Assembly: GCF_017873815.1 (NCBI RefSeq)
Contig: NZ_JAGGKQ010000014.1
Location: 1 to 64,000 of the forward strand
From: Halorubrum alkaliphilum
GTDB taxonomy: Archaea; Halobacteriota; Halobacteria; Halobacteriales; Haloferacaceae
DNA length: 64,000 nucleotides
Reading direction: 5' to 3'
Of the stretch, positions 36,467 to 41,839 are shown piece by piece. The notes beneath the pieces were generated by a model that worked only from the letters and a program-made list of their open reading frames with translations, made no database searches and was not told where the DNA came from. Numbering within the stretch: position 1 is the stretch's first letter; every line of letters begins with the position of its first letter. The position numbers and the translations under genes are program-made.

Positions 36467-36487
36467 CCTCGGGGCTTGACCCCGAGG
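36467..36487 (+). repeat. Left-end hairpin of the IS
   Basis: CCTCGGGG-cttga-CCCCGAGG, identical to the right-end hairpin at 38484-38504 and in the same orientation. Such subterminal hairpins are bound by TnpA for single-strand transposition. Confidence 0.85.
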
Positions 36488-36506: not shown

Positions 36507-36959
36507 TTAAACGTGTTCCGTGCGCTCGATATACTGCTCAATCGTGTCGGTCGAAACATCGCCTGCCGTCCCAACGTAGTACGACTCCTCCCAGAACCCA
36601 CCACCCCACAGGAACTCCTCCAAGAACGGTTCGTGCTGTTCCCACATCTCCCGCGCCGTGATGCTCTTGACCGTTCGTACAATCTCGCTCGGCGCGTGTT
36701 TCGGATGCGCTGACAGGAACAGGTGTACGTGGTCAGGCGAGATGTGGAGTCGTTCGAGAGACGGAGTCTCTCGTGATCACGAAAATCTTCGATTTTCGGA
36801 CGACGACAGTACCTCGTAGTCGTACTCGTCGCACACGCCGCGGAAACTCGCTTCCAACGAGTCCTCTATTAGTTCGAGAATCGTGTGGCGGTACTTTGGA
36901 CACCACACGAAGTGGTAGTTGACGTTGTATACCGTGTGGTTCGACCGCTTCTCACCCAT
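36507..36959 (-). pseudogene. tnpA: Y1/HUH transposase TnpA, interrupted
   Basis: An IS200-type TnpA. The N-terminus MGEKRSNHTVYNVNYHFVWCP runs to YEVL; then 57 foreign bases, an in-frame multiple of three holding two 19-bp hairpins (36755-36798), introduce a TGA. The frame then resumes with PDHVHLF (HUH) and the catalytic Tyr in EQYIERT before the natural stop. A 1-53 fragment and an unstarted 3' half cannot make an active Y1 transposase, so TnpA here looks dead; trans-mobilisation by another copy is possible. Confidence 0.82.
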
Positions 36960-37054
36960 ACCTACCAATACAACGACCAATCAAAAGTATTCCTTGAAAT
37001 GACTCATAGACTACCACCAGTAAACTTTTAAGCGTGGAAGAACAAGGGGTAGAC

Positions 37055-37198
37055 GTGACGAAGCAACTCAAGGTATCCGACGCCGTGTACGACGAGCTTG
37101 ATGAACTCAAGGACAAGGAGGGACACACGAGTTTCGACAGCGTACTCCGCACGCTCCTCCTCCACTACCGTCACGTCCAACCCAACGACCAAGAATGA
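37055..37198 (+). CDS. 47-residue RHH/antitoxin-like protein within the IS
   Basis: Read from GTG at 37055 (TKQLKVSDAVYDELDELKD, KEGHTSFDSVLRTLL), which has the shape of a ribbon-helix-helix repressor or a VapB-like antitoxin. Its TGA overlaps the tnpB ATG (ATGA), so the two are translationally coupled. A TATA-like ACTTTTAA lies about 30 bases upstream. GTG at 37034 is an alternative start giving 54 residues. Confidence 0.6.
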   Translation: MTKQLKVSDAVYDELDELKDKEGHTSFDSVLRTLLLHYRHVQPNDQE

Positions 37199-38472
37199 CC
37201 GACGCACAGGCTCTCGTCAAGACGCTGGACTTCCAACTCAACATCCACAGTGACAACGAGAGCCTGCTGTACGACGCCACCCTCGAATCACGGTCGGCGT
37301 ACAACGAAACCATCCGCCTCGCCAAGCAAGGCGTGGACTGGGACGACATCCCCGACCGAGTAGCCGACGACGCCGACCTCGTGAAGAACACGACACAGCG
37401 CGTTGTCGCCAAGGCTCTCGGCGCGATGGAGAACTATTACGAGTACGACGACTTCGGACTCCCGAGTCACACCAAGGACGGCACGTACCCGCTTCGAGCG
37501 AACTACGAGGAGGGGTACAACCTGTCGCTCACCGACGACGGCAACGTGGCGTTTCGCATCAGCGCGAAGCCGTACAAACACGTTAAGGGTGTTCTCGAAG
37601 GCGACGACGCTCACCTCGTTATTCTCAAGACCGCGCTCACCAGCGACGAGTGGAAGATTGGGACGGCAGAAGCCCTTTTCCACAACGAGAACGTCGAGTT
37701 GCACGTCAACGTCACCAACACCGAGCAATCCGTTCGAGACAAGCAGGACTCACGGACGGTCATCGGCGTGGACGTGAACGAGGACAACGTGGCTCTCACC
37801 GCACTCTCCGAGGGTGGCGTTGAGGACACGTTGGTTATCGACTTCCCTGAAATCAAGTTCGAGCGTCACCGCTACTTCACGATGCGAAAGCGGGTGCAGA
37901 ACGCAGGGAAAGAGAGCATCCACGACACGCTCGAAGGACGTGAGGAACGGTTTGTCCGTGACCGACTCCACAAGGTAAGTCGTCACATCGTGGAGTGGAG
38001 CCGTCAGTTCGAGAGGCCGTGCATCGTCTTTGAAGACCTCAAAGAGATGCGCGACAGTATCGACTACGGCACGCGGATGAACCGACGCTTGCACCACCTC
38101 CCGTTCCGCGCCCTCCAATACTACACGTCGTACAAGGCGTCGTTTGAGGGGATTCCGACCGCGTGGATTAACCCCGAGTACACTAGTCAGCGGTGTCCGA
38201 TGTGTGGACATACGGAGCGAGCAAACCGAAACAAGAAGCGGTTCAAGTGTCGGTCGTGCGGGCATCAAGACCACAGCGACCGAGGTGTAAGCGTCAACAT
38301 CGCCGTGAAAGGCATCAAGAAGCATCAGAATTGGAATGTGTCTGCTCTCAACAGCCTTCCCATTGTTCGGAAGGTGCGACGGCAGGCATCGGGGGCCGTG
38401 GACGCCCCGACCGTGACCCACGACGCCGTTCGAGGTTATCAGGCCGATGGTATCGTGGGAGTGTCCGACTAA
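37195..38472 (+). CDS. tnpB: RNA-guided nuclease TnpB
   Basis: A 425-residue TnpB with the RuvC-like catalytic residues: Asp in GVDVNEDN (D193), Glu in FEDLKEM and Asp in HSDRGVSVNIA. The four-Cys zinc finger CPMCGH/CRSCGH lies between the last two. An N-terminal basic bundle (about residues 1-130) should bind the guide RNA. All motifs are present, so the protein is probably active as an RNA-guided nuclease. Its guide would come from the sequence next to the right end of the element. Confidence 0.9.
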   Translation: MTDAQALVKTLDFQLNIHSDNESLLYDATLESRSAYNETIRLAKQGVDWDDIPDRVADDADLVKNTTQRVVAKALGAMENYYEYDDFGLPSHTKDGTYPLRANYEEGYNLSLTDDGNVAFRISAKPYKHVKGVLEGDDAHLVILKTALTSDEWKIGTAEALFHNENVELHVNVTNTEQSVRDKQDSRTVIGVDVNEDNVALTALSEGGVEDTLVIDFPEIKFERHRYFTMRKRVQNAGKESIHDTLEGREERFVRDRLHKVSRHIVEWSRQFERPCIVFEDLKEMRDSIDYGTRMNRRLHHLPFRALQYYTSYKASFEGIPTAWINPEYTSQRCPMCGHTERANRNKKRFKCRSCGHQDHSDRGVSVNIAVKGIKKHQNWNVSALNSLPIVRKVRRQASGAVDAPTVTHDAVRGYQADGIVGVSD

Positions 38473-38512
38473 CCCACGGGAAGCCTCGGGGCTTGACCCC
38501 GAGGCGGTTCAC
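38380..38512 (+). ncRNA. Predicted omega/re-RNA at the right end of the IS
   Basis: By analogy with other TnpB elements, the 3' end of tnpB and the right end, including hairpin CCTCGGGG/CCCCGAGG at 38484-38504, should form the scaffold, with the guide made of flanking sequence from 38513 onward. The 5' boundary is approximate and no expression data exist. Confidence 0.45.
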
Positions 38513-41349: not shown

Positions 41350-41839
41350 TCGCTTATAAATAGATGGCGCGGTGGCGCGCCCCGGTGAGCGGCTCGGAGA
41401 GCCGCGAACCGCGAGGGACCGAAGGTCCCTCTGGCAGCCGGCGCGTAGCGCCGGCGACGACGGCGCGAGGTCGCCGGCGGCTCCGCCGCCGGCTGCCAGA
41501 GAATCTCCGATTCTCGCTGGAGTCAGAGGCGGTCGCCGAGCGGTTCCGGCGACCGCCTCTGACGAGGTTGGGGAGGCGTGAGGATGCGGTTGCTGTGCGG
41601 GGTGGGACTCAAAGAGACAGCCGGCGGCGGCGCCGCCGGCGACACCGCAACGAGGGAGCCTGCGACCGAGTGAGGAGCACAGCGAGCCTACGCCGCCCGC
41701 ACGGCTGGGGCTTTGGAGGTGTTCGCCGTCGATCCACAGTCAACCACCTATAAACGAGTGGTTGGAACGTGTGAGTGGTTTCTCGCGGAGTCGTCTACTT
41801 ATAAACCGCCGCTAGCAACACTACTCTCTCGCTTATAAA
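41350..41839 (-). repeat. Structured intergenic repeat, copy B (inverted, expanded)
   Basis: Reading on the minus strand: TTTATAAG at 41839 and 41805 (34 apart), TTTATAGG at 41754 (51 further), CCTCCAAAGCCCCAGCCG at 41719-41702 (35 further), then CCTCACGCCTCCCCAACC from 41583, GCGCGCCAC at 41380 and TATAAG at 41358 (22 apart). The order and spacings match copy A. Copy B is longer because GC-rich hairpins (41389-41563 and about 41620-41640) lie in the middle. The flanks of this 698-bp gene gap (41212-41909) show no gene. Confidence 0.8.
41389..41563. repeat. Run of short perfect hairpins with three-base loops
   Basis: Five stems of 7-9 bp each with a 3-base loop: GCGGCTC gga (41389-41405), GAGGGACC gaa (41413-41431), GCCGGCGC gta (41437-41455), GCCGGCGGC tcc (41473-41493), GAGAATC tcc (41499-41515). 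A 16-bp-arm dyad follows at 41522-41563. Some nest in a longer CTGGCAGCCGG/CCGGCTGCCAG pair. The class matches hairpins inside tnpA (36755-36798). Confidence 0.85.

Follow-up and report, generated by a model that had tools for sequence, protein, structure and literature searches.

The tnpA gene of an IS200/IS605 element in a haloarchaeal genome is interrupted by a 54 bp pair of hairpins. The insert belongs to a haloarchaeal family of very small, non-autonomous palindromes, which are probably mobile elements of the single-stranded DNA type, moved in trans by a Y1 TnpA. Comparison of genomes establishes the family with its boundaries and target motif, and shows that the element is gained or precisely lost at the same positions and that its hairpins are conserved as DNA.

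The tnpA insert and its host element

The window (the whole 64,000 nt stretch analyzed) is part of contig 14 of a 3.1 Mb haloarchaeal draft genome. The tnpA gene (36507–36959, minus strand) codes for a Y1 transposase of the IS200/IS605 type and is interrupted after 52 codons, with the 80 codons past the insert intact; insert-free relatives match Pfam Y1_Tnp (PF01797). The plus strand carries a small IS gene (37034–37198), annotated in close Natrinema copies as ‘DUF2080 family transposase-associated protein’, and an intact tnpB (37195–38472; 425 aa) whose close copies are annotated as ‘RNA-guided endonuclease TnpB family protein’. Near the ends of the IS are two palindromes of identical sequence, CCTCGGGG-CTTGA-CCCCGAGG, one at the left (36467–36487) and one at the right (38484–38504), neither assigned a strand. 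The left palindrome is empty here and is occupied by a member of the double-hairpin family in other copies of the IS.

In the sense of tnpA the element (36750–36803, minus strand) reads TCGTC-CGAAAATC-GAA-GATTTTCG-TGATCA-CGAGAGAC-TCC-GTCTCTCG-AACGA, and on the plus strand it runs from TCGTT to GACGA. Both hairpins have 8 bp arms; on the plus strand the first is CGAGAGAC-GGA-GTCTCTCG (36755–36773, loop GGA/TCC) and the second is CGAAAATC-TTC-GATTTTCG (36780–36798, loop TTC/GAA), and the TGATCA centre between them (36774–36779) is the source of an in-frame TGA in tnpA. The first-pass annotation of this DNA placed the two hairpins within tnpA at these positions, joined by TGATCA and bringing the in-frame TGA, all of which is borne out, and it gave the insert as 57 bases, which alignment with near-identical empty tnpA copies shortens to 54 bp. 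It had proposed aligning intact relatives of the gene to define the insert and any target duplication, and comparison of empty copies (L020 and L024) with near-identical filled ones (L014 and L033) gives unambiguous boundaries at 36750–36803 with no duplication of the target; the family pattern described below matches exactly here, on both strands. The element lies between codons, TCG^CTC (...CTG TCG, 54 nt, CTC CAC ATC... on the minus strand), just before the PDHVHL (HUH) motif.

Each exact 19-mer hairpin occurs once in the window, and chance matches with three or fewer mismatches are expected in shuffled sequence 0.02 and 0.17 times for the two 19-mers. Folded as single-stranded DNA, the copy in the window reaches −13.8 kcal/mol, compared with −4.1 ± 1.8 kcal/mol for shuffled sequences. 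Hairpins are error-prone in sequencing, and a sequencing or assembly error at this site had been raised as grounds for dismissing the insert, but such an artefact has a negligible chance of being the explanation and is excluded by independent genomes: two further genomes share the identical 44-mer core, and the element occupies this site in more than 12 genomes and finished plasmids.

A family of double hairpins across the Halobacteriales

The 44-mer joint core recurs with 0–3 mismatches in 22 of 293 Halobacteriales genomes (reversed control, 0), and the two-hairpin insert is therefore not a product of chance. Aligned copies keep 5 nt feet, TCGTN and RACSA, and a 6 nt centre, KGATSA, while the arms vary yet remain self-complementary; the family layout is TCGTN-hairpin-KGATSA-hairpin-RACSA, 50–66 bp in all, and the two hairpins travel together. 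A generalised pattern that fixes the feet and centre only is found in 203 of the 293 Halobacteriales genomes and 70 of 87 genera (control, 0), with the self-complementary copies of the TGATCA subfamily often counted twice, once per strand, and 124 genomes from other parts of the phylum have no match. Among GTDB contigs 94 stretches matched, all of them haloarchaeal by title among the matches listed, and searches of IMG/VR contigs and phage records gave no match to a viral carrier. A literature search with the core motifs found no haloarchaeal paper.

There are two subfamilies, one with the self-complementary centre TGATCA and the other polar, with the centre TGATGA and the right foot AACCA; centres in the family other than TGATCA are TGATGA, GGATCA and CGATCA. 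The source genome has five copies, at C2:53721, C2:53874, C3:24549, C14 (the tnpA insert) and C17:22216. The two on C2 (53721–53783 and 53874–53936) are about 90 bp apart with similar flanks, and one of them has decayed arms.

The hairpins appear to be maintained as DNA. Among 53 copies, standard pairs occupy 95.7% of cells for the named structure, and the arms covary as Watson-Crick pairs, with 112 two-sided changes (30.6 when shuffled), a handful of one-sided changes, and almost no G·U intermediates. RNA helices usually evolve through G·U, and the missing G·U steps in these arms therefore point to selection or correction acting on DNA. The possibility of an RNA element was rejected on the lack of G·U covariation together with the lack of an Rfam match (0 matches for four loci, with E values up to 1). 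The loops are GNA or its complement TNC in 189 of 220 cases (12.5% expected), and at distinct sites, whatever the arm sequence, about four in five of the 3 nt loops are of this class; some 80–86% of such loops are GNA when read on one strand. C-GNA-G is the class to which DNA minihairpins of extraordinary stability belong (Yoshizawa 1997, cited in PMC6479982). In each hairpin the loop switches between GNA and TNC independently of the other hairpin, a pattern that suggests frequent inversion of the loop centre during replication.

Perfectly complementary arms and loops that flip between GNA and TNC are what hairpin-templated correction predicts, and template switching or quasi-palindrome correction could in principle have made the palindromes in situ, with no moving element at all. 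We consider this very improbable, in that the same feet and centre are present in hundreds of unrelated places and correction maintains arms but cannot create the same 54 bp sequence. Correction in place is thus contradicted as the origin of the element, and may act on its arms and loops.

The first-pass annotation also matched the insert to hairpins of a repeat at 41389–41563. The loop class is indeed common to both, with all five triloops at 41389–41515 being GNA/TNC compared with three among the remaining 13 in the window (and two of these three belong to the tnpA insert itself), but the repeat is a different element, a mosaic intergenic repeat at 41380–41720 with 88 partial genomic matches. 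One copy of it (L230, at C17:22216) itself carries a member of the double-hairpin family.

Gain, loss and consequences for TnpA

Filled and empty versions of a single tnpA site are present at the same nucleotide in near-identical copies of the IS, and family members are also found in tnpB; the earlier suggestion that these palindromes can enter genes is upheld for this family. In a tree of 53 tnpA sequences from which the insert had been left out, filled genes are scattered, with 13 state changes (14.0 with shuffled labels), at least six of which are forced by well-supported branches. The filled copy L033 is identical to the empty L020 over 120 nt to the left and 114 nt to the right of the site, compared with identity to other filled copies over 9 and 11 nt beside it; its flanks follow the empty sister, and the element alone was therefore gained or precisely lost. 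The same flanks disfavour gene conversion as the only cause of the patchy pattern.

All copies at the tnpA site have the same orientation and nearly identical arms, features that fit repeated insertion as well as an old insertion with precise loss. One ancient insertion into tnpA, never repeated there, could have been scattered by exchange between IS copies, through recombination or gene conversion, or by repeated precise loss; this would account for the shared position, orientation and arms, and a multi-copy IS could exchange sequence. We nonetheless regard it as rather unlikely, as the flanks of the insert follow the empty sister and not other filled copies, and loops differ even among related filled copies. 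Precise loss would in turn call for an activity that excises precisely, as the element has no direct repeats at its ends.

The targets of the family have a consensus of CGNNG^C over 76 distinct sites, with insertion 3’ of CGNNG and before C. The G^C step is present at 66 of these sites (7.6% background for the dinucleotide), with G at position −4 in 76% (p = 5e-14) and C at position −5 in 64% (p = 2e-8). The TGATGA subfamily has the motif on the 5’ side alone, with G at −4 in 32 of 40 and C at +4 in 9 of 40. Family sites include tnpA, tnpB, IS ends and intergenic DNA; 75 of 207 copies touch or adjoin tnpA or tnpB (the sample mixes search routes, and the fraction is not a genome-wide rate), and many others are intergenic. 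The near-terminal palindromes of the IS are a recurrent target, and 81 distinct sites overall are no more palindromic than background. A palindromic target as a general rule was rejected, the folding of these 81 sites being no better than that of G^C sites picked at random.

Several other hairpin inserts and rearrangements were observed in these genes. A second double-hairpin element, 51 bp long, is located in tnpA at AAG^TAC (between CCGAAG and TACCGC) with TAG or CAG as its last in-frame codon, and is carried by L009, L011, L019, L026, L027, L072, L161, L173, L178 and L183; its arms include a compensated change of GCAAAGC/GCTTTGC to GCAAATC/GATTTGC. A third insert is a 45 bp hairpin in tnpA, VWC-RQSEIDCLQIFDLQC-PKYRH, in L098, L164, L183 and L161, and is mostly open in frame. 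A related tnpA has a reversed TGATGA member in frame at HPK^HAPSEI, and in L187 (760–830) a TGATGA member is nested within a hairpin of the 51 bp element, as a palindrome within a palindrome. In L186, L187 and L079 the two family insertion sites are joined by deletions in tnpA, as recombination between two elements might produce.

The insert brings a TGA into the tnpA of the source genome, and so probably silences the transposase of this IS copy. About twelve filled tnpA genes keep the TGA, and it is replaced by GGA or CGA, with the frame open through the insert, in L007, L270 (Haloferax larsenii WP_258303533.1, 150 aa) and L153, the last of which has two elements; open TnpAs crossing one or two elements are 150–168 aa long. 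A reading in which the insert simply interrupts the gene is not supported in that form, since in several lineages the stop has gone and the frame is open. Intact, active TnpA homologues containing the same hairpins had been named as evidence that would speak against the earlier interpretation, and homologues with these hairpins and an open frame are indeed seen, as predicted proteins. Loss of the TGA is commoner in tnpA (4 of 11) than elsewhere (2 of 54; unadjusted Fisher p = 0.006), or 5 of 12 compared with about 1 of 53 once a misfiled tnpA copy (L079) is moved, but because the copies are related this excess is only suggestive. The TGA-bearing copies are otherwise mostly intact and no less conserved than insert-free genes (pN/pS 0.109, compared with 0.157), which would fit either recent insertion or retained function.

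These observations bear on whether the element is a tolerated coding insertion, with its TGA read through, skipped, bypassed or removed and TnpA keeping its function despite 18 additional residues, comparable to the Rickettsia palindromic elements. The open 150–168 aa proteins, the more frequent TGA loss at tnpA, the low pN/pS, and the lengths of the tnpA-site elements, which are multiples of three except in two frame-broken copies, are all consistent with this. Most copies still have the TGA, however, a stop-free centre is also found at a tnpB site, where no stop is removed by it, and the low pN/pS equally fits recent insertion. The insert falls within the strand preceding the HUH strand, and an AlphaFold model of an inserted TnpA, in which the insert is disordered there, is too poor (pLDDT 56) for function to be assessed. 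The matching take-off and landing codons of byp elements are also absent, TCG preceding the insert, CGA being the last codon within it, and CTC the first after it. On balance we judge a tolerated coding insertion improbable.

Proposed movement and relation to known elements

We favour the interpretation that the insert is a mobile element that would move as folded single-stranded DNA, with a Y1 (HUH) transposase acting in trans to cut and rejoin it; the most likely candidate is an IS200-type TnpA of the kind that hosts it. Insertion occurs without target duplication, 3’ of CGNNG and before C, and where the TGA has later been lost, as in other lineages, an 18-residue insertion is left in the protein. 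Tentatively, and with doubts that outweigh our confidence, we extend this to suggest that the two-hairpin element of ~54 bp could be an active, transposon-like single-stranded DNA parasite of archaeal IS200/IS605 elements, moved by the type of TnpA that it invades, often silencing tnpA and sometimes absorbed into the protein after the stop mutates. Relatives of this tnpA are present in 146 of 203 element-bearing genomes and 39 of 90 element-free genomes (odds ratio 3.3, the genomes not being independent), and in 57 genomes the element is present with no detected relative of this tnpA; the two are associated but not tied. A search for a parent using one arm type, CGAAAATC, found no element that shares this left end and carries a gene, and the left hairpin without the centre appeared once in 195 genomes, apparently as a mutated complete copy.

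The closest likeness is to the small mobile repeats SMR-A and SMR-B of Haloquadratum walsbyi, whose mobilisation was called enigmatic by the authors who described them; SMR-A is about 110 bp, and one SMR-B, at 80 bp, was described as exceedingly short (PMC3119063). Like the double hairpins they are haloarchaeal, have inverted ends, lack a transposase and a target duplication, and enter IS605-type elements, including at near-terminal palindromes, for which the Haloquadratum repeats have a preference. By description, and not by sequence, they differ in size (~80–110 bp compared with 50–66 bp), and the double-hairpin family, unlike the Haloquadratum repeats, is order-wide and often intergenic. 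A longer version of the layout, such as an SMR-A-like one of 110 bp, was found in none of 117 genomes.

A second likeness is to IS200/IS605 elements and their derivatives consisting of termini only (PATEs), which share with the double hairpins subterminal hairpins, the lack of target duplication, a 5’-sided target and precise gain or loss; as in those elements, the hairpins begin 5 nt from each end. The target of IS200/IS605 is a fixed 4–5 nt located 5’ of the left end, whereas CGNNG^C is degenerate, and is 5’-sided in the TGATGA subfamily. Unlike the IS200/IS605 derivatives, the double-hairpin element consists of two hairpins only, and no parent IS with the same ends was found. The Y1 TnpAs of IS200/IS605 and REP systems bind subterminal single-stranded DNA hairpins and are guided by short foot and target motifs, and the archaeal TnpAs surveyed are of IS200-type subclass 1.1 only (PMC6006769). 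REPINs or BIMEs, which depend on TnpA-REP (RAYT), are also inverted hairpin pairs with a short fixed foot motif, high copy number, no autonomy and a supposed single-stranded DNA movement (PMC6006769, PMC8266576). Their foot is GT[AG]G and they are bacterial, whereas the double hairpins have TCGT/ACSA feet (in full, TCGTN and RACSA), are confined to archaea and are also found inside genes. The Rickettsia palindromic elements, about 150 bp long and encoding a conserved peptide (PMC10969869), are similar as palindromic repeats lying in frame within protein genes, but in the double hairpins the match to the coding frame is incidental, most tnpA copies have the in-frame TGA, and there is no conserved open peptide.

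Because none of these systems was matched in all of its defining features, we set the double-hairpin family apart from SMR, REPIN, IS200/IS605 and Rickettsia palindromic elements, as a putative relative of known kinds. It carries no gene, and few of the mobile DNA elements so far described appear to be smaller. The family would give the archaea, in which no REP transposase is known, a counterpart of the bacterial REPINs, and it makes the movement of the small mobile repeats of haloarchaea testable. The feet, the centre, the GNA loops and the CGNNG^C target together allow many Halobacteriales genomes to be annotated by a simple rule.
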